Assembly: GCA_025351405.1 (NCBI GenBank)
Contig: JANXVZ010000043.1
Coordinates: forward strand, 1-37,382
Reading direction: 5' to 3'
DNA length: 37,382 bases
Source of the DNA: Sphingomonadales bacterium
GTDB lineage: Bacteria > Pseudomonadota > Alphaproteobacteria > Sphingomonadales > Sphingomonadaceae
The notes beneath the pieces are model-generated. The model did no database searches. It was not told where the DNA came from and saw nothing but the letters and a program-made list of their open reading frames with translations. The first letter of the stretch is position 1, and the number at the start of each line of letters is the position of its first letter. This document shows, in pieces, positions 3,001-36,500 of the stretch. The position numbers and the translations under genes are program-made.

Positions 3001-6000
3001 GTTCAATTGGTACGACACCCAGAGCCTTGCCGTACTGTCCCCCAAATATGTGTCGTCCGTCGACAGCGGCAACCTCGCCGGGCATCTGATCGCGCTGGCC
3101 AATGCCTGTGAGCAATTGGTCGCTGCCCCGGTCATCGAGCCCGGGTGGAGCATGGGCGTCCTCGACAATGTCGACGTGCTGCGCGAAGCCATGGCGCAAC
3201 AGGCCACAACCGATGGCGGCGTAGAAGCGGCGCTGGCCAGTGTTGCAGCGCTGCTGGATACGGAACCGACAGCACCTGCTGCCATCGCCCAGCGCCTTGC
3301 CGCCTTGGCGCACGCGGCTGCGACGCTTGTTGAGAACGCCCGTGGGGCCGGCGGGGAGGCAGGCGCGGTTCTGGGCTGGGCGCTAGCCGTCGAAGCCTGC
3401 ATCACATCGCAGCGGCGGGATCTCGAGCGTTTGGCGCCTTGGGCGGGGCTGATTGCCGAGATGGTACCAGACAGCATTCCGCCGGCACTGCGCGAAGGCA
3501 TGCCGACACTGGCAACCATGCCGACATGTTGCGATGCGGCCTTGGCAGTTCTGGAAGGTCGGGGCGGATGCGAGCCGCTGCGCGAGGCGTTGACACAGTC
3601 AGCCGATGCCTCCCGCCAGCTTGCGGCGCGGCTTCAGGCGTTATCCGCCGAAGCGATGGCGTTCTTCCATGCCATGGATTTCGGCTTTCTCTACGACGCC
3701 GAGCGGCAGTTGCTGTCGATCGGCTACCGCAGCGAAGACGATACCCATGATTCCGACTTTTACGACCTGTTGGCGTCCGAAGCGCGGCTGGCGAGCTTCA
3801 TCGCCATCGCCAAGGGCGACATACCCGCCAAGCACTGGTTCCGGCTTGGCCGCACGATGACGCCCATCGACACGAGTTCGGGGCTGATCTCGTGGTCTGG
3901 ATCGATGTTCGAATATCTGATGCCGTCGTTGGTTATGCGCGCTGCGGCGGGCAGCCTGCTGGAGCAGACCAACCGGTTGATCGTCTGGCGTCAGATTCAA
4001 TATGGTGCCGAATTCGATGTGCCTTGGGGCATTTCGGAATCGCAGTACAATGCCCGCGATCTCAACAGCAATTACCAATATTCCAGCTTTGGCGTGCCCG
4101 ATCTGGGCTACAAGCGCGGGCTGGGCGATACCATGGTCATCGCGCCCTATGCGACCGGCCTCGCTGCAATGGTCAGCCCGACGGCGGCGCTGAAGAACTT
4201 TCGTCGGATGGCCGCGTTGGGGGCGCAAGGTGCCTATGGCTGGTACGAAGCCATCGATTTTACCCCCGCAAGGCTTCGTGAAGGCAGCAAGTATACCGTC
4301 ATCAAAGCCTATATGGCGCATCATCAGGCGATGACCCTGGTCGGCATCGCCAACGCCCTCACCGGTGGGCGGATGCGCGCTCGTTTTCATGCCGAACCAA
4401 TCATACAGGCGGCGGAATTGCTCCTGCAGGAGCGCATGCCGCGTGATACCGCGCTGGCGCGACCGCAATCGGAACAGGCAGCGGCGGTGGAAGACGTCGG
4501 CCGGGCCGTTGATCCGACCCGTCGCTACACATCCATCCATTCGCCAGTGCCGCGCGTCCAGATCCTGTCGAACGGCCGCTATTCAACGATGGTGACGACC
4601 GCTGGATCGGGCTACAGCCGTTGGGGCGAGGTCGCTGTGACGCGCTGGCGCGAGGATGTCACCTGCGACGGTTGGGGCAGCTACATATTCCTTCGCGATG
4701 TCCGCAGCGGGGCAAGCTGGTCGGCGGCCTACCAGCCCAGCGGCATCGAGCCCGACGACTATCGAGTCAGTTTTTCGGAAGATCGCGCCGAGATCGTGCG
4801 ACGTGACGGCACGCTGTCATCCGGGCTCGATATCATGGTCTCGCCCGAAGACGACGCCGACGTGCGGCGGCTTTCGATCACAAATAATGGCACCCGAACG
4901 CGTGAAATCGACGTAACATCCTATTCGGAACTGGCACTGGCGCGACCGGCTGATGATCTTGCGCATCCGGTGTTCGCCAAGTTGTTCGTGCAGACGCATT
5001 TCGTGCCGGAGCTTGGCGCCCTGCTGGCAACGCGTCGCCAACGCTCGACGGCGGACCCGTTGGTCTGGGCGGCGCACCTCGCCGTCGTCGAGGGCGACTG
5101 GTCGAATGATGTCCAGTATGAAACCGACCGCGCGCAGTTTCTGGGTCGTGGCCGCACTATCCGCACCGCCGCCGGCATCGTCGATGGCTGGCCGCTTTCC
5201 AATACGTCGGGCACCGTTCTGGATCCCATTTTCAGCATGCGCCGCCGTGTGCGGATTGCCCCCGGGGCGACCGCGCGCATCGCCTTTTGGACCGTGGTGG
5301 CGGAAACGCGGGAAGCGGTGATCGATCTTGCTGACAAGCATCGCGACGCAACCGCCTTCGATCGGGCGCGCGCGCTGGCATGGACGCAGGCGCAAATGCA
5401 GATGCGTCACATCGGCATCAGTCCGGATGAAGCACATCTGTTTCAGCGGCTTGCCGGACAAATCCTGTACTCGTCGCCGGCGTTGCGGCCACCGGGCGAT
5501 GTCATCAAGGCTGGTTTGCGCAAGGTATCGACACTTTGGGCGCAGGGCATTTCCGGGGACCGGCCGATCGTTCTGGTACGCGTCGGCAGCGAGGATGATC
5601 TGGAGCTTGTCCGGCAGATGCTGCGGGGGCTGGAATATTGGCACCTCAAACGACTGGCCGTCGATCTTGTCGTGCTCAACGAACGCGCAACATCCTATGT
5701 CCAGGATCTGCAGAACGCCTTGGAAGCCATGGTGCGGATGCACCAGTCACTGTCGGGCATGGCGCGTGATCCGTCGTTGGGAACGGCCTTTGTCTTGCGC
5801 AGCGACATCGTTGGGGCAGAGGTTTCGGGCTTGCTTAATGCCGCGGCTCGGGTGGTCCTCCATGGCGACCGCGGCACGCTGGCGGAACAGCTCAATCGGT
5901 CGCGCGAAGTCGTTGTTGCGGCGCTGCCGTTGCCATGGCGGGTGTTGCCTCCCGCCGAAACCGAGGCACCATTGCCGCGCCCGGACCTTGAATATTTCAA

Positions 6001-8398
6001 TGGCCTCGGCGGATTTGGCGCCGGCGGGCGCGAGTATGTCACCATCCTGGAGGGCAACCAGCGCACCCCTGCACCGTGGATCAATGTCATTGCCAACCCG
6101 GACTTCGGATTCCAGGTTTCAACCGATGGAAGCGGCTTCACCTGGTCGGTAAACAGCCAGCAGAACCAGTTGTCCCCCTGGTCGAACGATCCGGTCAGCG
6201 ATGGTCCTGGCGAAGTGCTGTACATCACCGATGAGGACACCGGCCGCGTCTGGGGCCCGACGGCGTTGCCGATCCGGGAGCCGGCGTCGGCCTATACCGT
6301 CAGCCATGGCCAGGGCTACAGCCGCTTTGCCCATACGGCGCATGGCATAGCGCTGGAATTGACCCAGTTCGTGCCGGTCGATGACCCCATCAAGATCATG
6401 CGACTGTCGATCGCCGACCAATCGGGGCGGGCACGCCGGCTTTCGGTGACGGCCTATGTGGAATGGGTACTCGGCAGCTCGCGCAGTGCAGCGGCGCCTT
6501 ACGTGGTTACCGAGCGCGACCCTCTCACGGGTGCAATTTTCGCGCAGAACATCTGGCATGATCGGTTTGGGCAACGCGTCGCCTTTGCCGATCTGTGCGG
6601 TCGCCAGACCGCGTGGACGTGTGATCGTCGCGAATTTCTCGGCCGCGATGGCTCGGTCGACCGTCCGCTTGGGTTGGCGCCCGGTGCGCAACTTTCCGGC
6701 AGCACTGGCGCCGGGCTTGACCCATGCGCCGCCTTGCAAACCCGGGTCGCGCTTGGCCCGGGCGGCCGCACCGAGATCACCTTTCTCCTCGGCCAGACGG
6801 CAGATCACGCTGCGGCATCCGCGCTTGTTGCCAAATATCGCGCCGCCGATCTGGACGCGGTATTCGCTGCGGTCACCGGCCAGTGGGACGAGACCTTGGG
6901 CAAAGTCGAGGTCCGTACCCCGGATCGTGCGCTCGACATCATGCTCAACCGCTGGCTGCCGTATCAGACGCTGGCATGCCGGGTATGGGCACGCGCCGGC
7001 TTTTACCAGGCCAGCGGGGCCTATGGCTTTCGCGACCAGTTGCAGGATGTAATGGCCCTGTGTCTGCTGCGCCCCGAGCTTGCACGCGAACACCTGTTGC
7101 GCGCTGCCGGGCGCCAGTTTGTCGAGGGCGATGTCCAGCATTGGTGGCTGCCGGAATCGGGCAGTGGCATCCGCACCCGGATCACCGACGATCGCAACTG
7201 GCTGGCATATGTTGTCGCACATTATGTCGAAGTGACCGGCGACCGTGCGGTTCTTGACGAAATGGTGCCATTCCTCGACGGGCCGGTTCTGGCACCCGAT
7301 CAGCACGATGCCTTCTTCGAACCCGGTGTTTCGCCACAATCTGCGACGTTGTTCGATCATTGCGCACTGGCGCTCGATGCCAGCCGCGGCATCGGAGCCC
7401 ACGGCCTGCCGCTGATGGGCAGCGGCGACTGGAACGACGGGATGGACCGGGTCGGCGGCGGCGGGCAGGGCGAGAGCATTTGGCTCGGCTGGTTCCAGCA
7501 CCGTGCCATGACGAGCTTTGCCACGCTGGCCGAAGCCTATGGTCGGCCCGAGCGCGCCATCGTCTGGCGCGAACATTGCGCGCGCCTTCAAAGGGCGCTC
7601 GAGGCCGGTGGCTGGGATGGCGACTGGTATCGCCGAGCCTATTACGACGATGGCGAACCCTTGGGTTCGGTATCGAACAGCCAGTGCCGGATCGACTCGA
7701 TCGCCCAGACATGGGCAACCATATCCGGCGCTGCGGATCCAAACCGCGCGGTTCGTGCCCTTGCCGCAGTCGAAAAATATCTCATTCGCCGGGATGACAA
7801 GCTGTCGCTGCTGTTCACGCCGCCGTTCGACAGTCCGGGGCACGACCCCGGCTATATCAAGGGCTATCCGCCCGGCCTGCGCGAGAATGGTGGCCAATAC
7901 ACCCATGCGGCGGTCTGGGCGGTTCTCGCCTTTGCGATGCAGGGCGATGGTGACAAGGCCGGCGAGTTGCTGGCCATGCTCAATCCGATCAACCATGCCA
8001 ATACCTCGGCGGGGATGCATCGCTACAAGGTCGAACCTTATGTGGCATGTGCCGACATCTATTCGGAGCAACCCAATGTCGGGCGCGGCGGCTGGACGTG
8101 GTACACAGGCTCGGCCGGCTGGACCTATCGCGTCGCGCTGGAGGCCGTTCTGGGGCTGCAGGTCAAAGGCGGTGCGTTATGCATCGACCCTTGCATCCCA
8201 CGCGGATGGCCGGGGTTCGAGATGATGTGGCGCCACGGGGCGACGCGGTATGAAATCAGTGTCCTGAACCCGCTCGGTGTCTGCCGCGGCGTACTTTCGG
8301 CCTCGCTCGACGGCCTGCCGATCCCCAAGGCAGCCCTGTTGTGCATCCCCCTCGTCGACGATGGTTTGCCCCATCGGGTGGAGGTCGTGCTCGGCTGA
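2..8398 (+). CDS. ndvB: Cyclic beta-1,2-glucan synthase (NdvB/ChvB type), 5'-partial
   Basis: An inner-membrane enzyme that builds cyclic beta-1,2-glucan from UDP-glucose, adjusts chain length by phosphorolysis and cyclises the product. The frame is open from base 2 and already reads typical NdvB sequence before the first GTG at 152, so the start lies upstream of the window. 2798 residues are visible; the family is about 2800-2850. Numbering from base 2: hydrophobic segments near 315-370; GT84 domain with the LDADTRLP acid motif (D534) and the QHRWARGDW motif near 680; several more membrane segments near 720-890; a glycoamylase-like PF10091 region near 1240-1460; two beta-sandwich domains; and a C-terminal GH94 phosphorylase barrel with the GDWNDGM motif, whose second Asp (D2479) is the expected catalytic acid. 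No frameshift is seen. The product normally sits in the periplasm and serves in osmoadaptation and host interaction. Confidence 0.96.
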   Translation: MREIREDLPPGFYRNLPKLADGPLQGYPRVVGIAWALVAHTDSAFETAKLVRFVAAYQRVQPLTIGELWALAITLRITLVENLRRLAETIGARMVARQNADDLADRLLGTTFVTAEPMAALQADLERAPWSTAFAVQLALRLRDRDPEATPVLEWLDNRLAAEGLSGDEILRDEVQRQSSANVTVRNIITSMRLVSRVNWAEFFESVSPVDAIMRKGSNFAAMDFPTRDYYRRSIEKLALRSKRTESEVAALAVAAAERAKARLVAHPDDALALRATDPGYYLIAQGRRAFEVELGCRVPLKTRIYRLNADMGVLSYVGMIAIVTAIVLAGAGLVADQSGAGGWPLALLVLAGLVPASDVAVSLVNRIITQRVGAVRLPALEFAKGVPDEFRTMVVVPVLLTSIASVEQQIERLEVHHLSSPGDDLTFALLSDWTDADAETTPADAPLLAAAASGIARLNARHGPVARYPRFVLLHRKRLWNPGEASWIGWERKRGKLEELNRLLRGATDTTFMAIDGQPAQLPPNVRFVITLDADTRLPIGAARHLIGKLAHPLNRPVFDARTGLVVAGHGILQPRVTPSLPIGAQGSLFERVFSGPNGLDPYALAVSDVYQDLFEQGSYSGKGIYDVDTFIAALDGRIPENAVLSHDLLEGIFARAGLATDVEVVEEFPSDYDVAAARQHRWARGDWQLLPWIFGLRRASAAGGHRDSVPLMGRWKLLDNLRRSLSAPTALLALILAWLQPPPVAQIWTLFIVATIMLPPILPALASLVPHRFGASLRNHFRGVADDLALGLTQSLFLLTFLAHQAWLMVDAVLRTLLRLVTRRRLLEWVTSAQSVTAFRGDRRSLVVQIVASAAFAGAVALAMVLARAHNWALAAPFAVVWVFSPLIARWASRPPREPGFLRISDGDATALRLIARRTWRFFEDYVGVGDNCLPPDNFQEDPEPVVAHRTSPTNIGLYLLSVVTARDFRWLGSIDAMERLKGTMATLGRLELCHGHLFNWYDTQSLAVLSPKYVSSVDSGNLAGHLIALANACEQLVAAPVIEPGWSMGVLDNVDVLREAMAQQATTDGGVEAALASVAALLDTEPTAPAAIAQRLAALAHAAATLVENARGAGGEAGAVLGWALAVEACITSQRRDLERLAPWAGLIAEMVPDSIPPALREGMPTLATMPTCCDAALAVLEGRGGCEPLREALTQSADASRQLAARLQALSAEAMAFFHAMDFGFLYDAERQLLSIGYRSEDDTHDSDFYDLLASEARLASFIAIAKGDIPAKHWFRLGRTMTPIDTSSGLISWSGSMFEYLMPSLVMRAAAGSLLEQTNRLIVWRQIQYGAEFDVPWGISESQYNARDLNSNYQYSSFGVPDLGYKRGLGDTMVIAPYATGLAAMVSPTAALKNFRRMAALGAQGAYGWYEAIDFTPARLREGSKYTVIKAYMAHHQAMTLVGIANALTGGRMRARFHAEPIIQAAELLLQERMPRDTALARPQSEQAAAVEDVGRAVDPTRRYTSIHSPVPRVQILSNGRYSTMVTTAGSGYSRWGEVAVTRWREDVTCDGWGSYIFLRDVRSGASWSAAYQPSGIEPDDYRVSFSEDRAEIVRRDGTLSSGLDIMVSPEDDADVRRLSITNNGTRTREIDVTSYSELALARPADDLAHPVFAKLFVQTHFVPELGALLATRRQRSTADPLVWAAHLAVVEGDWSNDVQYETDRAQFLGRGRTIRTAAGIVDGWPLSNTSGTVLDPIFSMRRRVRIAPGATARIAFWTVVAETREAVIDLADKHRDATAFDRARALAWTQAQMQMRHIGISPDEAHLFQRLAGQILYSSPALRPPGDVIKAGLRKVSTLWAQGISGDRPIVLVRVGSEDDLELVRQMLRGLEYWHLKRLAVDLVVLNERATSYVQDLQNALEAMVRMHQSLSGMARDPSLGTAFVLRSDIVGAEVSGLLNAAARVVLHGDRGTLAEQLNRSREVVVAALPLPWRVLPPAETEAPLPRPDLEYFNGLGGFGAGGREYVTILEGNQRTPAPWINVIANPDFGFQVSTDGSGFTWSVNSQQNQLSPWSNDPVSDGPGEVLYITDEDTGRVWGPTALPIREPASAYTVSHGQGYSRFAHTAHGIALELTQFVPVDDPIKIMRLSIADQSGRARRLSVTAYVEWVLGSSRSAAAPYVVTERDPLTGAIFAQNIWHDRFGQRVAFADLCGRQTAWTCDRREFLGRDGSVDRPLGLAPGAQLSGSTGAGLDPCAALQTRVALGPGGRTEITFLLGQTADHAAASALVAKYRAADLDAVFAAVTGQWDETLGKVEVRTPDRALDIMLNRWLPYQTLACRVWARAGFYQASGAYGFRDQLQDVMALCLLRPELAREHLLRAAGRQFVEGDVQHWWLPESGSGIRTRITDDRNWLAYVVAHYVEVTGDRAVLDEMVPFLDGPVLAPDQHDAFFEPGVSPQSATLFDHCALALDASRGIGAHGLPLMGSGDWNDGMDRVGGGGQGESIWLGWFQHRAMTSFATLAEAYGRPERAIVWREHCARLQRALEAGGWDGDWYRRAYYDDGEPLGSVSNSQCRIDSIAQTWATISGAADPNRAVRALAAVEKYLIRRDDKLSLLFTPPFDSPGHDPGYIKGYPPGLRENGGQYTHAAVWAVLAFAMQGDGDKAGELLAMLNPINHANTSAGMHRYKVEPYVACADIYSEQPNVGRGGWTWYTGSAGWTYRVALEAVLGLQVKGGALCIDPCIPRGWPGFEMMWRHGATRYEISVLNPLGVCRGVLSASLDGLPIPKAALLCIPLVDDGLPHRVEVVLG

Positions 8399-18139: not shown

Positions 18140-18213
18140 CCGCCGCTTTTAGGGCCACGGCGCCCCGCAGACCCTTGCGGCAGCCGGGGAACCGAACCGG
18201 GAGAATTTCAGCC

Positions 18214-20400
18214 ATGACTGTTATCAACACCAATGTCTCTGCCCTCACCGCCCAGTCCGGCCAGCGCATTGCGCAGTCCAGCCTTGCCATGGCGATGGAG
18301 CGGCTTTCGACCGGCCAGCGCATCAATTCGGCCAAGGACGATGCCGCCGGCCTCGCCATTTCGCAGCGCATGACTGCCGATGTGCGTGGTATCGCCGTCG
18401 CCATGCGCAATGCCAACGACGGAATAAGCCTTGCGCAGACGGCGGAAAGCGCGATGGGCGAAGTCACCAACAACCTGCAGCGGATGCGCGAACTTGCGGT
18501 CCAGGCAAGCAACGGCACCATTACAGGCGATGACAGGAAGGCGCTGCAAGCCGAAGTCAAGCAGCTCAGCAGCGAAATCGACAACATCGGCAAGCAGACA
18601 AACTTCAACGGCATCAAGCTGCTCGACGGGTCGGCGAAATCGGTGATGCTGCAAACCGGCAGCCGCGCTGGCCAGACCGTCAGCTTCGGCATCGGCTCGG
18701 CGAAGGCCACCGACCTCGGCACCGGCCGTACCGCCGCCCTCACCGCCACCGGCAGCTTTGAGGCCACGACCACCAACCTTACCGCCAACCAGTCGCTGAC
18801 ATCGGGCGATCTTGTCATCAACGGCGTTACAATCGGCTCGGGTTCGGCAGACGATGACAGTGTCTCGTCAGACCAGAAGGCCGCTTCTGCCCTCGCAAAG
18901 GCGGCTGCGATCAACCGGTCTTCGGTCGAGACCGGCGTTCACGCCGTTGTCGGCAAGACCGTGATGACCGGATCGGCGATGACCGCCGCGGCGTTGACGG
19001 GTACCATCACAATCAACGGCAAGACGACGGATTCGATCAGCACGACGACCGATGCCGCGCAAAGCCGCAAGAATGTGCTCGATGCCATCAATGCCATCAG
19101 CGGCCAGACCGGCGTGACAGCCATCGACAGCGGCGACAACAACGCCGGTATCCGCCTCGAAGCCGCCGATGGGCGCAACGTCGTCGTCGCCCTGACAACG
19201 CTCACCGCAGCCGCTACCGGTGTCAAGGCGGGCGCGCAGTCGGGGACCTACTCGCTGGTATCCGACAACGGCCAGCCGATCGTCGTCGCGTCGACAAGCT
19301 CGGGCAAGCTCAGCCGGTCAGGTCTCGCAGCCGGCAGTTTCGAGCGCGGCGTCTCGACGGCGGCCACCGATGCCCGTTCGGTCGCCACTTCGGCGGCAAC
19401 GGCAGTTACCCTCAACACCGGCGACTTGAAGATCAACGGCAAGGCCATCCGGGCGGCCACAACGGCCGATGATACCATCTCCGATGCCAGTGCGGCATCA
19501 TCGAGCAAGTCGGGCAGCGCCATCGCGGTCGCCAATGCGATCAATGCCACGAGCGCCGAAACGGGGGTCACCGCCAAAGCCAATGCACTGACCTTGAGCA
19601 GCACGACCACGACTGCCATCGCCGCTACTGCCACGGCAACGCTGGCCATCAACGGCGTCAGCATGGACATCACCCTCGATCAAAATGACTCGGCCCAGGC
19701 AACTCGTGACAATGTCGCCAAGGAGATCAACAAATATACCGGTCTGACCGGTGTGGCGGCCAGCGACAACGGCCGCGGCGGCCTCGACTTGACCGCTGCC
19801 GATGGGCGCAACGTCAGCGTCTATTTCGACACGGCAGAAGCTACGGCCGCAAACTTCGGCCTCGCGGGAACAACGGTGAAGGGCAGTGGCACAGCCTATA
19901 CGGCGGTCGGGGTCGCCGATCCGACCAGCATCGCCGGCGACGCCGTGCAGACCGCCTATTCGACCGTGTCGCTGCAATCCGCCAAAGGTATCGACGTCGC
20001 CGCCGGAAGCCTTGCCTATGGCACCGCATCGAACTTCACGAAGCTGGGCTTTGAAGAAAACAGCTACGGCACGGACAAAGGTGGGCTGAAGATCAGCGAC
20101 ATCGATGTCTCGACCCAGGACGGTGCGACGGCGGCGCTGGGTGCAATCGACGAGGCTCTCGGTTCGGTCAACCTCGATCGCGCCAACTTGGGTGCGGTGC
20201 AGAACCGGCTCGAAGCCACGGTCAACAACCTGTCGTCGAATTCGACGAACCTGGTTTCGTCACGTTCACGCATCCAGGATGCCGATTTCTCGGCGGAAAC
20301 CACCAACCTTGCCAAGTCGCAGGTGTTGAGCCAGGCCGCCCAGGCCATGCTGGCCCAGGCCAACCAGGCCCAGCAGCAGGTTCTGCAGTTGCTGCGGTAA
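18214..20400 (+). CDS. fliC: Flagellin with enlarged, duplicated central region
   Basis: A 728-residue filament protein; classical alphaproteobacterial flagellins are about 270-500 residues. The N-terminal D0/D1 region (1 to about 170) is canonical: [14 protein letters not shown], then [20 protein letters not shown]. The C-terminal D1/D0 region (about 620-728) ends in a Gln-rich helix, [10 protein letters not shown]. Between them is a Thr/Ala-rich region with four segments built round an ING turn: I202, I267, I407 and I479. The second and fourth look like Flagellin_IN repeats and end in ADGRNV; the order A-B-A-B means one module of about 205-212 residues has been duplicated. There is no signal peptide, as expected for type III export. 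The ATG at 18214 follows GGGAG. No other flagellar gene is nearby. Function is clear; the role of the extra surface domains is not. Confidence 0.95.
18811..19833 (+). repeat. Tandem-duplicated flagellin module (A-B-A-B)
   Basis: Within the flagellin gene the segment from about residue 200 to about 330 is echoed from about 405 to about 540. At DNA level an identical 18-base stretch encoding ADGRNV occurs at 19165-19182 and 19798-19815, exactly 633 bases (211 codons) apart. Other parts have diverged, so this is an old duplication rather than a recent slippage product. Confidence 0.75.
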
Positions 20401-20851: not shown

Positions 20852-23395
20852 ATGTTCAGCAAGTGCATTATCCAGGCGACACTGCTCGCCTCTGGCAGCT
20901 TTTATATCCTGCCAGCCTATGCCGAAACGGTCGAGGAGGCGTCCGCAGCTGCCGACGCGATCGTGGTGACGGGGACGCGCAGCAGCAACACGGCGCGCTC
21001 CGAACAGCTTGCGGCGCCAAACCTCGTCAATATCCAGGCGGCGGAGGACATCATCAAATATCCGGACTTCAACGCGGCGGAATCGCTCGGCCGAATCCCG
21101 GGTGTCTCGTTGGCTTCGGACACCGCCGAGGGCCGCTTCGTCAATATCCGCGGCATCGACGGCAATTTGAACGGCACGACCTTTGGCGGTGTCACACTGC
21201 TCAATACGCAGCCGGGGGGCACATATTTCGGCGGCGGCGGTCGCGCCGTCGAGCTCGACACCATCCCGATCGGCGCCGTCGATCGCCTTATCGTCCGCAA
21301 GACCGGCACGCCAGACCAGGAGGCGGAGGGGTTGGGCGGCTCGGTCGAGCTGACGCCTCGGACGGCGGCAGGACTGAAGGGGCCGTTCGTCGAAGCCACC
21401 ATCGGCGGGGGTTATCAAAGCGCCCGCAAAAGCGGGAAGGTTTTTCGCGGCGATATCGCCACCGGCACACGGTTCGGCGGTGCCGACAAGCCGTTCGGCA
21501 TTGTCGTTTACGGTTCATACCATGAAGACCGCCGCGGATTTGACGATCTCGAGGCTGGCTACGTCGATGGCCAGGCCGATGGCGTGCCCGACAAAGTCTT
21601 CGATGCGGTCGACCTGCGCCGCTACAACTATAATCGCCGTCGCTTCGGATTTGGTGGCGAGCTCAGCTATGATCCGACGCAGCAAAGCCATTACTACCTG
21701 CGCGCCACCGATGCAGGCTATACGGAATCGGTCAATCGCCAGTTGCTCAACTATCGCAACCTCGGCGACGGCACGATCATCGACCCCGCCAATGCCAATG
21801 GCTTTGTCGCACCCGCCGTCTCGGCGCGCCTGACGCAGCGCGACGAACAGGAAACCCATCTCAACTTCGTGGTGGCAGCCGGCGGACGCAACGACCTCGA
21901 CAAGGTTATCGTCGACTATCAAATTGCCTATACTGCTTCTACCTATCACCGCGACTACGACTACAACAGCACCTTCAAGACGCCGTCATCGAGCATTTTC
22001 ACGGTGGCATATGACAATATAAGCAATCCGGACTATCCCAAGATCACGCCAATCGGCTTCAATCCGAACGACCCTACCCAATTCACGCTGACAGGCCTTC
22101 GCAGCGCCACCGAGCGCGCAAAGGACCGCGAATATTCGGGCGTCCTCAATATTACCGTGCCGGTTACGCTGTTCGGAAGTGACGAGACGATCAAGTTCGG
22201 CGGAAAGGCAAGGCTTCGTGACAAGATCGACGAACCTTACAATATCGGCTTCAGTCCGCCACGGACGCCGCTGACCGCGCTTCTCGGGGCAGGGCCTTTC
22301 ACCGACTTTTATGCCGGCAATTATTCGGTGGGCTATAATGCCGACCCGGCAGCCGTTCGCAAGCTTGCCACGGGTGGCGCCACAACGCTCAATACCGGCG
22401 GATACTTCAACGATACCGAGAATATCTATGCCGGCTACGCGCAATATCAGGGCAAAATCGGCAATCTGAACGTTCTCGCCGGCGTCCGGGTCGAACATAC
22501 CCAGGGCACCTACCGCGGCATCGTCGTGACCACCGATGCCGATGGCAACGACAGTTTGGCGCCGACTGCTCGCAAGAGCAATTACACCAATGTCTTCCCG
22601 ACGGTGCAGTTGCGGTACGACATCATGCCGGATCTCGTGGCGCGCGCGACCTATTCCACCGGCATCGGCCGCCCTGGCTTCCTGCAGTTGCAATCGGGTG
22701 CAAGCGTCGATCAGGGGGCGTTGGCCGTTTCGGTCGGCAATCCCGAGCTGAAGCCGACCACCGTCAACGCCTTTGACGCCGCGCTGGAATATTATCTTCC
22801 CAATGCCGGTATTCTGGCAGTCGGCGTTTTCGACAAGGAGTTCAAGAACTACGTCCTTGGCAGGGTGCAGCGCAGTGTCGATTATCTCGGCGACGGCAAC
22901 CTCTACACTGTCAACAGCTACAGCAACGTCGGCAGTTCGCATGCTCGCGGCTTTGAAGCGCAGTATAGCCAGAAGTTCGCAATGCTGCCGGCGCCGTTCG
23001 ACGGGTTCGGCGTGCTCGGCAATGTCACCTACGTCAACTCCAGGGTCGAAATCCGGCCGGGCGAATTTTCGCTCCTGCCTGGCACATCGAAGTGGACCTG
23101 GAATGCCGCTGCCTTTTATGAGGCGCATGGCTTGCAGTTGCGCGTGGCAGCGCAACGGGTCAGCGCGGCAATCTTCGGCGTAGGCGGGGCGACGGGTCTG
23201 GATGTTTTCCAGGATGCCCGCACGACTCTGGATGTGACATCAAGCTACGCCATCAGCGACCGGATCGGCGTGTATTTCAACGCGCGCAACCTGCTCAACA
23301 CGCCGCTTCGCTACTACGAAGGCTCGGTCAACCGCCCGATACAGCGGGAATTTTACCAGGTCAGCTATGAGGCTGGCGTACGTTTCAAGTTTTAG
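20852..23395 (+). CDS. TonB-dependent outer-membrane receptor
   Basis: An 847-residue outer-membrane transporter powered by TonB-ExbBD. Signal peptide about 1-24 (cleavage after AYA), a TonB-box-like ADAIVVTGTR at about 35-44, a plug domain (IIKYPDFNAAESLGRIPGVSL; VNIRGIDGNLN), and a 22-strand barrel ending in the aromatic C-terminus VRFKF. The segment YSTGIGRPGFLQLQ followed by GNPELKPTTVNAFDAALEYYL is typical of the large Caulobacter/Xanthomonas receptor class, which mostly imports oligosaccharides and other plant- or polymer-derived compounds. The substrate is not evident. ATG 20852 is chosen for GGGGAGG 5-6 bases upstream and the signal peptide that follows. It is followed after 21 bases by a YncE-like propeller gene, so the two are very likely one operon. 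Confidence 0.93.
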   Translation: MFSKCIIQATLLASGSFYILPAYAETVEEASAAADAIVVTGTRSSNTARSEQLAAPNLVNIQAAEDIIKYPDFNAAESLGRIPGVSLASDTAEGRFVNIRGIDGNLNGTTFGGVTLLNTQPGGTYFGGGGRAVELDTIPIGAVDRLIVRKTGTPDQEAEGLGGSVELTPRTAAGLKGPFVEATIGGGYQSARKSGKVFRGDIATGTRFGGADKPFGIVVYGSYHEDRRGFDDLEAGYVDGQADGVPDKVFDAVDLRRYNYNRRRFGFGGELSYDPTQQSHYYLRATDAGYTESVNRQLLNYRNLGDGTIIDPANANGFVAPAVSARLTQRDEQETHLNFVVAAGGRNDLDKVIVDYQIAYTASTYHRDYDYNSTFKTPSSSIFTVAYDNISNPDYPKITPIGFNPNDPTQFTLTGLRSATERAKDREYSGVLNITVPVTLFGSDETIKFGGKARLRDKIDEPYNIGFSPPRTPLTALLGAGPFTDFYAGNYSVGYNADPAAVRKLATGGATTLNTGGYFNDTENIYAGYAQYQGKIGNLNVLAGVRVEHTQGTYRGIVVTTDADGNDSLAPTARKSNYTNVFPTVQLRYDIMPDLVARATYSTGIGRPGFLQLQSGASVDQGALAVSVGNPELKPTTVNAFDAALEYYLPNAGILAVGVFDKEFKNYVLGRVQRSVDYLGDGNLYTVNSYSNVGSSHARGFEAQYSQKFAMLPAPFDGFGVLGNVTYVNSRVEIRPGEFSLLPGTSKWTWNAAAFYEAHGLQLRVAAQRVSAAIFGVGGATGLDVFQDARTTLDVTSSYAISDRIGVYFNARNLLNTPLRYYEGSVNRPIQREFYQVSYEAGVRFKF

Positions 23396-24539: not shown

Positions 24540-25004
24540 TTAAAAGCCGAGGTCGCCGAGCTCGGGATGATCGTCCGGCCGTCGACCAAGGGGCCAGTGA
24601 AACCTGCGATCGCCGTCGCTGATCGGATGTTCATTGATACTGGCGAGGCGGCGACGCATGAGGCCGTCGCTATCGAATTCCCAGTTTTCGTTGCCATAGG
24701 CGCGGAACCATTGGTGGCTGTCATCATGGTATTCGTATGCAAAACGCACAGCGATACGATCGCCCTGGTATGCCCACAACGACTTGATCAGGCGGTAGTC
24801 TAGCTCCCGGGCCCATTTGCGCGTCAGCAGGGCCTCAATTGCGGCGCGACCAGCCACAAATTCAACCCGATTTCGCCAGATGCAATCTGCCGTGTAGGCA
24901 AGCGCCACCTTTGCGGGATCACGACTGTTCCAGCCATCCTCCGCAAGGCGCACCTTTTCTGCGGCGGTCGCAGCTGAAAAGGGCGGTAGTGGGGGACGGG
25001 ACAT
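24540..25004 (-). CDS. NTF2-like protein, DUF1348 family
   Basis: A 154-residue single-domain protein of the nuclear transport factor 2-like (SnoaL) fold. The DUF1348 hallmarks are an N-terminal helix region [35 protein letters not shown], a central [43 protein letters not shown] and a C-terminal RRLASINE(H). The cone fold commonly binds or isomerises small hydrophobic molecules; the activity of this family is not established. The ATG at 25004 has GGAG close upstream and is preferred over a start 42 bases earlier. It follows the AhpD-like gene by 72 bases on the same strand with a strong hairpin between them, and has no operator copy of its own, so it is probably the second gene of that transcript. 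Confidence 0.83.
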
Positions 25005-25032
25005 ACAATTCTCCAGTACCAGGGTCGTGAGG

Positions 25033-25065
25033 GGCAGGGCGATCATAGCGCGTGATCGCCCTGCC
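25033..25065 (-). other. Strong intercistronic hairpin between the AhpD-like and NTF2-like genes
   Basis: A perfect 13-bp inverted repeat (25033-25045 with 25053-25065) and a 7-base loop. There is no T tract on the minus strand, so it is more likely an mRNA stabiliser or a partial attenuator that sets the ratio of the two genes than a full terminator. Confidence 0.6.
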
Positions 25066-25076
25066 TGGCGACCAGG

Positions 25077-25625
25077 TCAGGCCGCCAGTGCCTCGACGAC
25101 GGGAAAGTCGATCTCGGTGCCAAGCACTTCATTGACATAGTTGGTCAGCGTATTGAGCGCGACATGCGCGATGATTTCGACAATTTCCGCGTCGGAATAT
25201 CCGGCGTTGCGGACTGCAGTGATGTCGGCGGGTGCAACAGCGCCGCGGCTGCGGGCGATGCCGGCGGCGAAGCGAACGGCGACAGCGGCCTTGGCGTCCG
25301 TCGAAGTGCCATGGCGATTGGCGGTGATTTCGATGGCATCGAGCTTGGCAAGGCTTTTTCCGAACTGGCTGTGTGCGGCGAGGCAATAGTTGCAACCGTT
25401 GACCTCGGCGATCGCAAGGGCAATGCGTTCGCGGGTGGCAGCGGGCAACACGCCTTTGCCGAGTGCGCCGCTGAGCCCGAGGTAGCCTTCAAGAGCTGCC
25501 GGACTGTTGGCAAAGATGCGAAACATGTTCGGAACGCTGCCGATTTGCTTTTTCACAGCTTCGAGCAATGGGCGCGAGGCTGCGGGGGCGGTCTCGATCG
25601 ACGGCGGGGTTGGAATGCGTGACAT
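25077..25625 (-). CDS. Carboxymuconolactone decarboxylase-family (AhpD-like) protein
   Basis: A 182-residue all-alpha protein of the CMD/AhpD superfamily. The redox motif is intact: EVNGCNYCLAAHS, with Cys78, Cys81 and His85, the CxxC-x3-H pattern of AhpD, where the thiols reduce peroxides or regenerate peroxiredoxin. The N-terminal PNMFRIFANSPAALEGYL is typical of the peroxidase-related branch. The ATG at 25625 has AGGAGA 5 bases upstream. A copy of the operator-like element shared with the cytochrome P460 and PPOX genes lies about 100 bp upstream, which ties it to the LysR regulon proposed here. Its physiological oxidant is unknown; thiol-based peroxide or quinone reduction is the likely role (inference). 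Confidence 0.88.
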   Translation of the reverse strand: MSRIPTPPSIETAPAASRPLLEAVKKQIGSVPNMFRIFANSPAALEGYLGLSGALGKGVLPAATRERIALAIAEVNGCNYCLAAHSQFGKSLAKLDAIEITANRHGTSTDAKAAVAVRFAAGIARSRGAVAPADITAVRNAGYSDAEIVEIIAHVALNTLTNYVNEVLGTEIDFPVVEALAA

Positions 25626-25702: not shown

Positions 25703-25746
25703 AGAATGCCTGTATTTGGCAATTCATTGTACCATCCAGCGGAATT
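25703..25746 (-). promoter_or_regulatory. Operator-like element, copy 1 (upstream of AhpD-like gene)
   Basis: The core TGTACC-N7-GGAATT (25728-25746, plus strand) is the most degenerate copy of a motif also found at 26464-26482 and 27182-27200. On the minus strand, in the gene's direction, conservation extends as GGTACAATGAATTGC and onward to ATTC. The start codon is 121 bases from the outer edge. It lies in the 142-base gap between this gene and the P460 gene. Confidence 0.55.
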
Positions 25747-25767
25747 GTTTACCCCGCTCCGACGGTT

Positions 25768-26367
25768 CTATTTGCCGGCGTCAAAAACGCCCGCTTTCAC
25801 CGCAATCGGCTTGGCCGTCGGGTAGAATTGGACGAATGTGGTATCCACCGCTCCGTGAGCCAGGTGGCAGGCGTAGCAGCTCGCCGTTGCCGGCAGCGGT
25901 CGTGCCGGCTTGTCGCCAGTGTTGACGAAAAATCCCCACCCACCCTTGAAACGTTTGCTGTCACGGACGTGGACTTCAAGGTCGAAGCGTTGCTCGGTCT
26001 GGAAAATGCCCGACTTGTTGATCGACCCTTTGCTCGAACCGACCCGGCCTTCCTTTACGATCACGGTTCCATCCGGCCAACGCCCGCTGGCCTTGAACTT
26101 ATGCCACGATGCCGGATCGACAAACACGTTGTCGACCATTTCGTGGCCCATGTTCATTGGTTGATCGCTGTAGTTCATGTTGACGCCCGAGGTCAGAAAC
26201 ACCCAGTCGCGATAGTCGATCGGCGCCAGCAGCTTACCATCAACCGTGTACTGGGCGGCCGGCAATTGCGTTGCTGTTACCTGAAGGTTCGAGCCGCAAG
26301 ATACCAGCACCAGTGCCGCCGCAGCGACCGGCAACCATCGCCGCGCTTCCACTGCATTCAACCGCAT
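25768..26367 (-). CDS. Cytochrome P460-family lipoprotein
   Basis: A 199-residue exported haem protein. The N-terminal signal ends in a lipobox, LVSC (Cys24), so it should be a lipoprotein on a membrane facing the periplasm. The cytochrome P460 domain runs about 45-190: YRDWVFLTSG, then WPDGTVIVKEGR, WGFFVN, and the c-type haem site CYACH (C164, C167, H168) followed by VDTTFVQFYP. Known P460 enzymes oxidise hydroxylamine or bind and detoxify NO, using a haem-lysine cross-link; which Lys would serve here is not certain. The ATG at 26367 has AGGAGG 5 bases upstream and is preferred to a start 45 bases earlier. A perfect copy of the shared operator-like element lies about 100 bp upstream. Confidence 0.88.
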   Translation of the reverse strand: MRLNAVEARRWLPVAAAALVLVSCGSNLQVTATQLPAAQYTVDGKLLAPIDYRDWVFLTSGVNMNYSDQPMNMGHEMVDNVFVDPASWHKFKASGRWPDGTVIVKEGRVGSSKGSINKSGIFQTEQRFDLEVHVRDSKRFKGGWGFFVNTGDKPARPLPATASCYACHLAHGAVDTTFVQFYPTAKPIAVKAGVFDAGK

Positions 26368-26422
26368 GCCATCCTCCTGTTGCGACTGGCAGCCAATGCC
26401 ATGCCCGCACACTGCAATGCTC

Positions 26423-26441
26423 TCCGCCGCCGTGCGGCGGA
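26423..26441. other. GC-rich hairpin in the P460 leader
   Basis: TCCGCCGC-CGT-GCGGCGGA, an 8-bp perfect stem with a 3-base loop, lies between the operator-like element and the P460 start, 51 bases past the PPOX stop on the minus strand. It may end PPOX transcription or structure the P460 leader RNA; no T tract is seen. Confidence 0.45.
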
Positions 26442-26482
26442 ATTGTATTAGTCTGAAATAGATTGTTCCGAAATGTGGAACA
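26439..26482 (-). promoter_or_regulatory. Operator-like element, copy 2 (upstream of cytochrome P460 gene)
   Basis: A perfect palindrome TGTTCC-N7-GGAACA (26464-26482) containing a T-N11-A LysR-type core. On the minus strand it continues as GGAACAATCTATTTCAG and then TAATACAATTCC, where TACAAT could serve as a -10 box. The outer edge is 115 bases from the start codon. Aligned by eye with copies 1 and 3, 21 of 44 positions are identical in all three. Confidence 0.7.
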
Positions 26483-26491
26483 GTAAATGTG

Positions 26492-27094
26492 TTACGTCAG
26501 CCTCAAGGCCGCCAACTCTGCCTCCAGCTTCGCAATACGGCTATCCCGCGCCGCCAGTGCTGCGGTCACGTCGCTTGCCGCGATCTTCTGGGGGATATGC
26601 TGCGCGCAATTTGCGTCCCAGGCTGCAATTTCGAAGATCATCGCCTGGTCGGCGTGCGCGCGGTAACCTTGCGGAACCAGGCGCTGGATGAGCGCCGGGT
26701 CGTCGTCGACAATGTGCACGCGGCCCCACAGCTTAACCCGGCGGCGATGGGCATAATCCATCAGAAAGATGAATGCCTTCGGATTTTCGCTGAAGTTGCC
26801 CGTCGAGATAAACTGGCGGTTGCCCCGAAAATCGGCAAAGGCCAGCGTCCGGTCATCGATCACATGGAGAAACCCCGCCGGACCACCGCGGTGCTGGATA
26901 TAGGGCTGGCCATCGCTGCTGGCGCTGCCGAGGTAAAAGCTGTCGCGTTCGGCAATGAAGGCTGAAAGCCGCTCATCGACACGATCGCCCATCTCGAGCC
27001 GCGCGCAAAAGTCACGCGAACCCTTGCGTGCCTGTACGGCCCTCACGGCCGGCGTGAAGGCGACATCAGCGGGACGAACGAACGTTTCCATCAT
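26492..27094 (-). CDS. PPOX-class (pyridoxamine 5'-phosphate oxidase-like) flavoprotein
   Basis: A 200-residue split-barrel flavin-binding protein. The core reads RLSAFIAERDSFYLGSASSDGQPYIQHRGGPAGFLHVIDDRTLAFADFRGNRQFISTGN in successive pieces, the usual FMN-binding split-barrel pattern of the PPOX group, with a C-terminal predicted coiled coil (AALAARDSRIAKLEAELAALR). These proteins reduce or bind small electrophiles, haem products or cofactors; no exact substrate can be given. Start choice: an in-frame ATG exists at 27151, but the conserved operator block reaches to 27157, no Shine-Dalgarno sequence precedes it, and the other two regulated genes begin 115-121 bases from the operator edge. 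ATG 27094 (or 27091) fits at about 106 bases, so it is used. Divergent from lysR. Confidence 0.82.
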   Translation of the reverse strand: MMETFVRPADVAFTPAVRAVQARKGSRDFCARLEMGDRVDERLSAFIAERDSFYLGSASSDGQPYIQHRGGPAGFLHVIDDRTLAFADFRGNRQFISTGNFSENPKAFIFLMDYAHRRRVKLWGRVHIVDDDPALIQRLVPQGYRAHADQAMIFEIAAWDANCAQHIPQKIAASDVTAALAARDSRIAKLEAELAALRLT

Positions 27095-27156
27095 CACGGC
27101 GACCCTGCGCAGCCCGACCGGCCACGGGGTCAAGTTGGTGAAGTTTGTCATCAGGA

Positions 27157-27200
27157 GGAATAGCGATAAACTGCAATGGATTGTTCCATAAAAGGGAATA
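27157..27200 (-). promoter_or_regulatory. Operator-like element, copy 3 (lysR/PPOX divergent region)
   Basis: The core TGTTCC-N7-GGAATA (27182-27200) carries the T-N11-A signature. On the minus strand it extends as GGAACAATCCATTGCAG to CTATTCC, closely matching copy 2. The core ends 4 bases before the lysR start codon and contains that gene's AAGGGA ribosome binding site, so bound regulator would also block lysR expression (inference). Confidence 0.7.
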
Positions 27201-27204
27201 AAAA

Positions 27205-28101
27205 ATGGCTCGGCTGCAAGCGATGCAGGTCTTTGTGAAGGTCGCGGAAGCGGGGGGCTTTGCCGGTGCGGCGCGACTGCTCAACATGAGCCCGCCGGCG
27301 GTGACACGCGCGATCGCAATGCTCGAGGATTTGATTGGCACCCGGCTTTTCGTCCGGACAACGCGGACGGTGAAGCTTACCGAGGCCGGCGGGCGCTACC
27401 TTGAAGATTGCCGCCGGATCCTTGCAGAGATCGACGAAGCGGAAAAGGCAGCCGCCGGTTCCTACGCCACCCCGACCGGCACCCTTACGGTCACGTCCTC
27501 GGTAATTTTCGGCCAGATCTATGTCCTGCCGATTGTCACCGAATATCTCGACAGGAACCCCGCGGTGACGGGGCGAGCGCTCTTTCTGGACCGGGTAACC
27601 AATATCGTCGACGAGGGCATCGACGTCGCGATCCGGATCGGCAACCTTCCCGATTCAAGTTATGCCGCGATCCGTGTCGGGACGGTTCGGCGCGTCGTCT
27701 GCGGCGCCCCGGCGTATTTCGAAACCCATGGCATCCCGGCAACCCCTGCGGACCTGGTGCGGCACCGGGTCATTGCTGCAACCAGCGCATTTGCCTCGCT
27801 GGATTGGCGATTTGGCCGCGACGAAAAGACCATGATCACCGTAAATCCGCGGCTGTATTGCAGCACCTACGAAGCAGTCGTTGCCGCCTCGGTGCAGGGT
27901 TGGGGCATCGCACGGCCGCTGTCGTACCAGATCGGCCCGGCGCTCGCTGCGGGCCAACTGCTGACCGTACTCACCGAATATGAGCCTGAACCGCTCCCCA
28001 TCCATGTCATCCACCCCGAAGGTCGCCGCGCCTCGGCCAAGGTCCGCGCCTTTGTCGACCTGGCCGTCGATCGATTGCGTGCCAATCGGATGATCAACTG
28101 A
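27205..28101 (+). CDS. LysR-family transcriptional regulator
   Basis: A 298-residue regulator of the subgroup with close similarity to DsdC/CrgA-like proteins. The N-terminal winged helix-turn-helix is clear (MARLQAMQVFVKVAEAGGFA, SPPAVTRAIAMLEDLIGTRLF, RTTRTVKLTEAGGRYLEDCR; residues 1-65), followed by a substrate-binding domain from about 90 with TLTVTSSVIFGQIYVLPIV and GIDVAIRIGNLPDSS. It is divergent from the PPOX gene, the standard LysR arrangement. Operator-like copies upstream of the PPOX, P460 and AhpD-like genes make these its likely targets. The ATG at 27205 has AAGGGA upstream, which overlaps operator copy 3 and suggests negative autoregulation. The effector is unknown. Confidence 0.92.
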   Translation: MARLQAMQVFVKVAEAGGFAGAARLLNMSPPAVTRAIAMLEDLIGTRLFVRTTRTVKLTEAGGRYLEDCRRILAEIDEAEKAAAGSYATPTGTLTVTSSVIFGQIYVLPIVTEYLDRNPAVTGRALFLDRVTNIVDEGIDVAIRIGNLPDSSYAAIRVGTVRRVVCGAPAYFETHGIPATPADLVRHRVIAATSAFASLDWRFGRDEKTMITVNPRLYCSTYEAVVAASVQGWGIARPLSYQIGPALAAGQLLTVLTEYEPEPLPIHVIHPEGRRASAKVRAFVDLAVDRLRANRMIN

Positions 28102-33520: not shown

Positions 33521-36500
33521 GCCTTTCGTCGCCTTTTGTGCGCCGGCCAGTCGGTACCCTGCTGCTGACAATCGGCATTGCGCTGGCCGGGATCACCGCG
33601 TTCTTCGCGCTGCCGGTGGCGCCGCTGCCACAGGTCGATTTCCCGACCGTGTCGATCCAGGCGCCGTTGCCGGGCGGCAGCCCGACGACGATGGCGACCA
33701 GCGTGGCCAGCCCGCTGGAGCGCCGCCTTGGCACCATCGCCGATGTTTCGGAGATGACCTCGCAGAGCGGCACCGGATCGACCCGCGTGACGCTGCAGTT
33801 CAACCTTGGCCGCGACATCAACGGCGCCGCGCGCGATGTGCAGGGGGCGATCAATGCGGCGCGGGCCGACCTGCCGTCGACGCTGAAAAACAATCCGACC
33901 TATCGCAAGGTCAACCCGGCCGATGCGCCGATCATGATCCTGGCGCTGACATCGAGGACCCGCACTCCGGCGCAGGTCTATGATGCCGTCTCGAGCATCG
34001 TCCAGCAGAAGCTGGCGCAGGTTTCCGGGGTGGGGGACGTCGAACTTGGCGGCGGCTCGCTTCCGGCGGTGCGGGTCGAGCTCAACATGTTCGCGCTCAA
34101 CCGGCTGGGGATCAGCCTCGACAGCGTTCGCCAGACCATCACCGCGTCGAACGGCAACCGGCCCAAGGGCGCACTCGACGACGGATCCCGGCGCTACCAG
34201 ATCTATACAAATCCGCAGGACCGCGTGGCATCGGCCTACAGCAATCTCGTCATCGCCTATCGCAATGGCGCCGCCGTGCACCTGAGCGACGTGGCGCGGG
34301 TGTATGACGGGCCGGAAGACCGCCGCACATTGGGGTTGTTCAACGGCAGGCCGGCGGTGGTGGCCAGTATCAGCCGCCAGCCCGATGCCAACATCATCGC
34401 CACCGCCGATGGGGTGACCGCGTTGCTGCCGGAACTGCGGGCGCAATTGCCCGCCGATATCGAAATGGCGGTCGCGATCGACCGCACCCGCACGATACGC
34501 GCCTCGCTTCACGAGGTCGAGATCACGCTGCTTGTCTCGACCCTGCTGGTGGTGCTCGTGGTCAGCATTTTCCTGCGATCGCTGCGCGCCACCATCGTGC
34601 CTGCAGTCGCGGTCACCGTGTCGTTGCTCGGCACCTTTGCTATCATGTATGCGCTGGGCTTCAGCCTCAATAACCTGTCGCTCATGGCGCTGACGGTGGC
34701 GACGGGCTTTGTCGTCGACGACGCCATCGTCGTGCTGGAAAACATCACCCGCCACATCGAAAAGGGCAAGGGCCGAATGGAGGCAGCGCTGCTCGGTGCG
34801 CGCGAAGTCGGCTTCACGGTGTTGACGATCAGCCTGTCGCTGATCGCCGTGTTCATACCGTTGCTCTTCATGGGCGGCATCGTCGGCCGCCTGTTTCGCG
34901 AATTCGCCATCACGCTTTCGGCGTCGGTGCTGATTTCGCTGGTGATCTCGCTGACCACGACGCCGATGATATGTGCGTGGCTGCTCGATGACGGCAAGGT
35001 CGAGACGCAACCCGGTCGGATCTCGCGGTGGCTGGAAGCCAGCTTCGACCGCATCCAGGATCGCTATGCGCGCAGCCTCGACTGGGCGCTTGGCCATGCA
35101 ACGCTGGTGATGGTCATCCTTGCGGCGACAGTGGCCTTCAACGTCTATCTGTTCGTCAAGATTCCCAAGGGCTTTTTCCCACAGCAGGAAACTGGGCAAT
35201 TGCAGGGTGGTCTGCGCGCCGACCAGAGTGTCTCGTTCCAGGCGATGCAAGGTAAGCTGCAGCAGATCATCGATATCGTCCGCAAGGATCCGGCCGTCGA
35301 CTCGGTGGTCGGCTTTACCGGCGGCGCCCGGGCCGGTGGCGGATTCCTGTCAGCCAGCCTGAAGCGGGACACCAAGGACAAAAGCGCCGACGTCTTGAAG
35401 CGCCTTCGCCCCAAGCTGTCCCGCATCACCGGCGTCGGCACGTTCCTCACGCCCGCGCAGGACATCCGGGTTGGCGGACGCCAATCCAATTCGGCGTATC
35501 AATACACGTTGAAAAGCGACGACACCGCGTTGCTGACGAAATCGGCACAGGCTCTGACCGCTGCGCTCAAGGCCGATCCGACGCTGACCGACGTCGATTC
35601 GGACAGCGTCGAAAACGCCGTGGAGGCATTCGTGACGGTCGATCGCGATGCGGCGTCGCGGCTGGGGGTGACTTCGGCTTCGGTCGATGCTGCGCTGTAC
35701 AATGCCTTTGGCCAGCGACAGGTGGCAACAATCTACAGCGCGCTCAACCAGTACAAGGTCATCATGGAAGTGGCGCCAGCGGACGCGCAGGGGCCGGACG
35801 CATTGCGCGATATCTATGTGCCCTCGACGATCGCGCCGACGGGTGCCGCTGCAGATGGCTTCGGCACCGGCAACGTCGCCGCATCGGGGCTGGCGGCGGC
35901 GACCGGCAGCGCGGCTGCGGCGCCGGTCACCGCGGTCAGCGCGGCGGCAGTGACGATGGTGCCGCTGTCCGCGCTTGCAAGCGTGTCGATGGCGTCCAGC
36001 CCGAGCTCGGTCAACCATCAGGACGGCGCCCCGGCGACGACCATCTCCTTCAACCTCGCGCCGGGAAGGTCGCTCAGTGACGCCAAGGTGGCCATCGCCG
36101 ATGCGCAGGCCCGGCTGGCGATTCCCGCCAATGTTCGCGGCAGTTTCCAGGGCACCGCAAAGGTGTTCGAAGATTCGCTGGCAGCGACGCCCTGGCTGGT
36201 GCTGGCCGCGATCATCGTCATCTACCTGCTGCTGGGGGTTTTGTATGAAAGCCTGATCCACCCGCTGACGGTGCTGTCGACCTTGCCGTCGGCCGGAGTG
36301 GGTGCCGTGCTGGCGCTGCTGCTGTTCAAGACCGAATTCAGCATCATCGCGCTGATCGGGGTTATCCTGCTCATCGGCATCGTCAAGAAAAATGCCATCC
36401 TTATCATCGACTTCGCCCTGGAGGCGGAACGAACACGCGGTCTTTCCCCGCACGAAGCAATCCGCGAGGCCTCGTTGTTGCGTTTCAGGCCGATCCTGAT

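Follow-up and report, generated by a model that had tools for sequence, protein, structure and literature searches.

A recurring, probable LysR operator in front of PPOX, cytochrome P460 and AhpD-like genes of a sphingomonad points to a small detoxification-type regulon

In a stretch of 37,382 nucleotides from a Sphingomonadales bacterium (contig JANXVZ010000043.1 of assembly GCA_025351405.1), referred to here as the window, a gene for a LysR-type regulator lies beside genes for a PPOX-type flavoprotein, a cytochrome P460 and an AhpD-like protein, and similar blocks of sequence stand in front of the latter three. The question that this locus raises is whether these blocks are operators of the adjacent LysR protein, and whether this protein governs a regulon of its own. 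The original prediction held that three copies of the motif directly define a small regulon around one LysR protein. Our comparisons make it very probable, as judged from sequence, that the adjacent LysR protein uses all three sites as operators and that they serve a detoxification-type regulon. The regulon part of the prediction is thereby supported, while "directly defines" is too strong, since LysR binding is something that we infer.

Three sites in the window and the genes behind them

A pattern scan of the window located TTCCNNNNNNNGGWA at 25730-25744, on the minus strand only and in the form TTCC..GGTA, and at 26466-26480 and 27184-27198, where it matches both strands. The motif had been predicted at these three places and is present at all of them, in intervals that had each been drawn 2 bases too wide per end. 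Aligned on the minus strand, the three copies share 21 identical positions across 41 bases, from TTCC through ATTC; the predicted list of shared elements (TTCC, GG, ACAAT, ATT, C, TA, ATTC) is exact. Outside this block identity drops, to 1 of 30 upstream positions and 11 of the last 83 downstream positions. Sites 2 and 3 are full T-N11-A interrupted palindromes; site 1, in which one half-site is imperfect (GGTA), keeps the outer pair only, the inner one being broken, and it is the weakest of the three under model R1, a sequence-only model of 46 operator positions (Table 1). From the near edge of the 15-mer to the start codon we count 105 bases for the AhpD-like gene, 99 for the P460 gene and 90 for the PPOX gene, and the predicted distances of 106-121 bases are reproduced when they are taken from the far edge of the wider intervals to starts at 25625, 26367 and 27094. 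The third copy does lie in the lysR divergent region, its core ending 6 bases short of the lysR ATG at 27205.

On both strands of the window TTCCNNNNNNNGGWA has 8 matches against a shuffle mean of 1.21, a number that none of 100 shuffles reached. Counted per strand, the three operator sites account for five of the eight; the rest are a match at 22797-22811 (+) and, scored once for each strand, a palindrome at 35176-35190. The longer pattern ATTGTWCCN7GGAA occurs exactly three times in the organism's own genome (3,024,303 bases), each time at these promoters, and model R1, run on the same genome at E<=10, finds the three window sites only. With one mismatch allowed, the pattern gave 14 counted matches, 10 of them elsewhere in the genome; these 10 were rejected as sites, since 14 against 9 for the reversed pattern looks like background, and the model at E<=10 recovers none of them.

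Table 1. Operator sites and neighbouring genes, in window coordinates
Feature	Coordinates	Strand	Remarks
LysR-type regulator, presumed binder	27205..28101	+	298 aa, HTH_1 and LysR_substrate
Operator 3	27157..27202	-	46-position directional site, pointing to PPOX; model R1 34.0 bits
Operator 3, TTCC	27198-27195	-	
Operator 3, GGAA	27187-27184	-	
Operator 3, ATTnC box	27177-27173	-	
Operator 3, ATTC box	27161-27157	-	
PPOX-type flavoprotein (PNPOx_N)	26492..27094	-	start 27094 or 27091
Operator 2	26439..26484	-	pointing to P460 gene; model R1 29.4 bits
Operator 2, core palindrome TTCCACATTTCGGAA	26466-26480	-	
Cytochrome P460	25768..26367	-	signal-like N-terminus (by eye)
Operator 1	25703..25748	-	pointing to AhpD-like gene; core 25730-25744; model R1 26.2 bits
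AhpD-like / peroxidase-related enzyme	25077..25625	-	Pfam CMD; CNYCLAAH motif
DUF1348 (SnoaL-like) gene	24540..25046	-	directly downstream of AhpD-like gene

The domains of the LysR protein score above their cut-offs, with HTH_1 at 78.2 bits (cut-off 26.6) and LysR_substrate at 105.2 bits (cut-off 28). The longest PPOX reading frame starts at 27151, and the start given in Table 1 is preferred because the reading frame of the orthologue in Novosphingobium hassiacum DSM 14552 (locus L016) starts at the place equivalent to 27091; a query over 26492-27097, one codon longer than the gene, gave no PDB sequence match at E<=0.001. Membership in the P460 family is indicated by the Pfam domain (78.9 bits, cut-off 27) and by a CxxCH haem motif, present as CYACH. 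Lys105 of this protein aligns with Lys106, the cross-linking lysine of chain 6e17, and Glu131 aligns with residue 131, the distal carboxylate position, which is Glu in the 6e17 sequence shown. With these two residues in place, the P460 protein looks catalytically competent, judging by its sequence. The roles of these two positions are treated in a portion of PMC11928373, where the native protein of 6e17 is given as having Ala131. The AhpD-like protein scores above both relevant cut-offs, for TIGR01926 (83.9 bits, cut-off 81.8) and TIGR00778 (43.7 bits, cut-off 27.8). The DUF1348 gene, which adjoins AhpD also in Sphingobium sp. CECT 9361 (L015), in L016 and in a further family genome (L097), probably shares a transcription unit with the AhpD-like gene.

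Two other genes of the window deserve mention in their own right. A 2748-aa protein at 152-8398 (+) combines GH94 supersandwich and catalytic domains with a putative glucoamylase domain, and we take it to be of the cyclic beta-glucan synthase type. At 18175-20400 (+) lies a 741-aa flagellin, in which about 500 residues separate the N- and C-terminal flagellin domains, a distance that seems long.

A directional site, probably an operator

An operator profile was built from 22 of 28 aligned sites, with orientation set by the neighbouring gene. Three sites that nearly repeat another one or come from one and the same locus (L054, L099 and the lysR site of L020) were set aside, and so were three sites 3' of lysR whose target is unclear (L017 5893, L018 5917 and L100 7183). 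Two of the latter, those of L018 and L100, carry the gene-side boxes by eye when they are read in the lysR-sense orientation, and the model scores them at 27.0 bits (L018 5918-5961, +) and 24.9 bits, respectively.

The consensus of the 22 oriented sites is attATTCC-N7-GGAAtAaT-nn-aTTnC-N11-ATTcT; the two T of box 1 and the two T of box 4 never vary among them. The ATTnC and ATTC boxes follow the palindrome on the target-gene side only; on that side the flank is informative as far as the ATTC box, and on the other side there is very little information. The TTCC-N7-GGWA core that had been predicted is thus present in a site that is directional and longer than the palindrome. Boxes 1-3 are spaced 11 bases apart, as would be expected of adjacent LysR subunits bound along the same face of the DNA, and the ATTC box may be either a further LysR contact or part of the core promoter. 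Readings of the boxes as ECF-sigma or -35/-10 elements were rejected on spacing, judged by eye. An additional short block of conservation, about 2.7 bits over the 22 sites, was unexpected; it lies on the gene side, beyond the ATTC box and 41-45 bases past the 23-base operator.

In RBS/ABS operators of the OxyR/BenM type, a palindromic recognition site is accompanied by less symmetric boxes towards the target promoter, and the arrangement found here is of the same general kind. It differs in its fourth box, which is ATTC in direct orientation, 16 bases on, rather than an inverted partner.

Occurrence at related loci and across the family

A contig scan for LysR relatives gave 51 loci, 49 of which were taken into site inspection, L064 and L065 being partial matches only. 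A lack of the motif in front of orthologous genes would have told against the original prediction, and this is not what the loci closest in architecture show: in L015, L016 and L097, lysR/PPOX and AhpD are each preceded by sites. We found no P460 gene in L015. Among the three other loci that bear P460, a site precedes this gene in L016, at a place equivalent to operator 2, and in neither L097 nor L019, the last of which carries P460 in a different gene arrangement.

When a match is defined as 12 or more of 16 positions with at least 6 of 8 in the core, the 16-position consensus has 76 matches in all 51 loci against 15 on reversed sequence. The corresponding counts are 62 and 10 in a chosen set of 30 distinct loci, which included 12 picked partly for sites already observed; a count of 73 against 10 holds two contigs double (L098 = L020, L099 = L017) and becomes 62 against 10 without L098 and L099. 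Model R1 has a match at E<=0.05 in 20 of the 51 loci, and 12 remain after the seven that gave training sequence and the near-duplicate L054 are set aside. Rhizobial and Pseudomonas loci (L022, L033, L036 and L040), in which the site precedes a GST gene, are among the model matches; the 31 loci without a match at this threshold include all four Paraburkholderia loci.

We also searched 298 genomes from the family, 51 of which have a homologue of the LysR protein at E<=1e-60, in 69 copies. The exact pattern ATTRTTCCN7GGAA has 118 matches in the 298 genomes, and 14 of these lie within 6 kb of a homologue against about 0.11 expected, an expectation that assumes 3.25 Mb per genome and independence and ignores relatedness; without the organism's own genome, 12 of 116 matches are near a lysR homologue. 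Since it is 14 matches that lie within 6 kb, most of the 118 are background. At E<=0.01, model R1 yields 38 matches in 23 genomes, and 32 of them have a lysR homologue within 6 kb. A homologue is present in 22 of these 23 genomes, compared with 51 of 298 overall. Fifteen of the 32 near-lysR matches, in 14 genomes, are at loci that contributed no training sequence. At E<=0.01 the site is conserved in 22 of the 51 lysR-bearing family genomes and has no model match in the other 29, under stricter filters with which weak matches are lost. Genome-wide, sites cluster at lysR homologues, in line with the proposal of a small regulon around one LysR protein.

Six model matches lie far from any lysR homologue. 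One (L120), on a different contig of a fragmented assembly, precedes an AhpD-like gene. Another (L123, 1501-1544) precedes an alpha/beta hydrolase gene 4.4 Mb from the lysR homologue; this hydrolase is 49-64% identical to hydrolases found near lysR elsewhere, and it is a possible unlinked member of the regulon. The remaining weak matches, at G164 C1:2664737, G274 C1:612022, G195 C3:52785 and G195 C1:541811, are unlinked to a homologue and possibly due to chance.

The genes that start beside the scanned sites mostly encode GST, PPOX, AhpD-like and DUF1348 proteins, alpha/beta hydrolases and small outer-membrane barrels, with a YHS-domain protein (L017) and a DAO-type oxidoreductase (L018) as single cases. 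Held-out model matches, including two away from lysR, precede genes of the same kinds (GST, abhydrolase, small OMP, PPOX, CMD and DUF1348). The three genes originally proposed keep their place in the putative regulon; related loci show further members, and for P460 the site recurs in one of three other loci. In L046 (2017-4149), L017 (1864-3930) and L036 (2048-4144), a fusion of a PPOX domain with an FAD/NAD/2Fe-2S reductase follows GST beside the LysR gene, and the reductase part of the L046 fusion best matches flavohaemoprotein, below the cut-off. Sites also stand before a gene for a small OmpA-like outer-membrane barrel (L100 7183, L102 6367, L103 5635, L105 6802 and L020 6993), just 3' of lysR in four of the five loci.

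The candidate binder and the probable function of the regulon

The best PDB match of the LysR protein is another LysR protein, 3mz1 (133.5 bits), and similarity extends to CrgA of Neisseria meningitidis (3hhg, 120.9 bits). Its best NCBIfam match is YafC (NF040888, 184.4 bits against a cut-off of 470), and AaeR comes second among the best (NF007917, 136.9 bits against 425); because these scores are far below the curated cut-offs, the protein falls outside both equivalogs, and its best reading is as a YafC/AaeR/CrgA-like regulator. Divergent promoters with T-N11-A sites are familiar from many LysR proteins, and the operator and gene set described here are probably a new example of such regulation, with good comparative support. 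Among the matches listed, as titles and the starts of abstracts, in literature on the regulator, the motif, the gene set, CrgA and P460, no description of the operator or the regulon was found. A portion of PMC6422896 gives the CrgA site at the crgA/mdaB promoter as T-N11-A and describes CrgA as an octamer; the system here has the T-N11-A site in common with CrgA and differs from it in operator sequence and targets. With the Nitrosomonas P460 proteins (2je2, 6amg), the P460 protein shares its sequence family, CxxCH, the aligned cross-link lysine and Glu at the distal carboxylate position. Its setting is different: the host is an alphaproteobacterium from the sphingomonad group, and the P460 gene has a LysR gene as its neighbour and is preceded by a LysR-type site.

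The sites might be bound mainly by a LysR protein other than the adjacent one, for example by a 45% paralogue that the same genome encodes on contig C32. In five family genomes (G042, G224, G122, G074 and G168), the genes of homologues with only 44-45% identity have this exact core no more than 25 bases away, and L051, a locus with sites, has a regulator with 37 of 66 winged-helix residues in common, so operator specificity may be broadly shared. In the recognition stretch the L051 protein has 9 of 20 residues in common, which makes it as divergent as the C32 paralogue (also 9 of 20) and leaves the paralogue a possible binder by this comparison. However, the 9.5 kb around the paralogue gene hold no consensus match, over the winged-helix region the paralogue reaches 29 of 66 against 46-54 of 66 for the five close orthologues of L015-L018 and L020, whose loci carry sites, and in orthologous loci the sites are found at lysR's own promoter. 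We consider the C32 paralogue unlikely as the binder, and binding mainly by any LysR protein other than the adjacent one distinctly improbable.

A similar weighing applies to the nature of the block and to its range of targets. One could instead read the repeated block chiefly as a core promoter that the genes have in common, or as a weak terminator hairpin. On the gene side conservation continues for about 23 bases beyond the operator, a stretch that could contain a -10 element, and the site-2 palindrome has a terminator-like score. Yet a motif found three times in the genome is far too rare for a core promoter; the genes behind it vary in their context, and from genome to genome its occurrence follows that of lysR. 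This reading is very improbable. A sigma-70 scan gave one promoter-like site against 0.6 in shuffles, and this one faces lysR. Finally, the LysR regulon may be real and P460 no regular member of it, site 2 being a local gain in this lineage, as would fit the presence of the P460 site in L016 and its absence in L097 and L019. We find this fairly unlikely, as site 2, perfect in its core and complete with directional boxes, scores 29.4 bits and has a copy at the equivalent place in L016.

For the adjacent LysR protein as the binder, the counter-evidence consists of the 29 lysR-bearing family genomes and the 31 loci that gave no model match, the P460 genes of L097 and L019 with no site before them, the broken inner T-N11-A of site 1, the existence of the C32 paralogue together with the recognition-stretch comparison, and the four stray model matches. 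What the comparisons show is the sites themselves, how rare they are in the genome, their conservation and direction, and their linkage to lysR; from these we infer LysR binding, the tetramer contacts, an inducer, the sign of regulation and autorepression, as follows. A LysR dimer would bind the TTCC-N7-GGAA palindrome, and the second dimer of a tetramer would probably contact the two boxes, ATTnC and ATTC, that lie towards the target gene. The bound protein would then control transcription of the PPOX, P460 and AhpD-like(-DUF1348) genes in response to a small molecule. At site 3, beside the lysR start codon, the LysR protein probably represses itself, a possibility suggested by the 6 bases between the end of the site and that codon. 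The enzyme set looks like protection against a peroxide, an electrophile or an N-oxide type compound, and the adjacent LysR protein probably controls a detoxification regulon of the peroxide/electrophile type together with its own gene.

More tentatively, and with slightly more doubt than confidence, we speculate that this LysR subfamily uses the directional four-box operator to run a widely distributed detoxification regulon, one for which no description was found among the literature matches listed and the members of which would be GST, PPOX proteins and PPOX-reductase fusions, AhpD-like and DUF1348 proteins, alpha/beta hydrolases, the small outer-membrane protein and P460, with P460 switched on by the same signal in this lineage. 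If this is true, P460 would be tied to a stress response in bacteria other than nitrifiers. The main reading would by itself bring together, in one regulon with a defined operator, a LysR protein so far uncharacterised and genes of unclear role, namely PPOX, DUF1348, AhpD-like and P460 outside nitrifiers, and this operator could be used to read regulon membership in other genomes.
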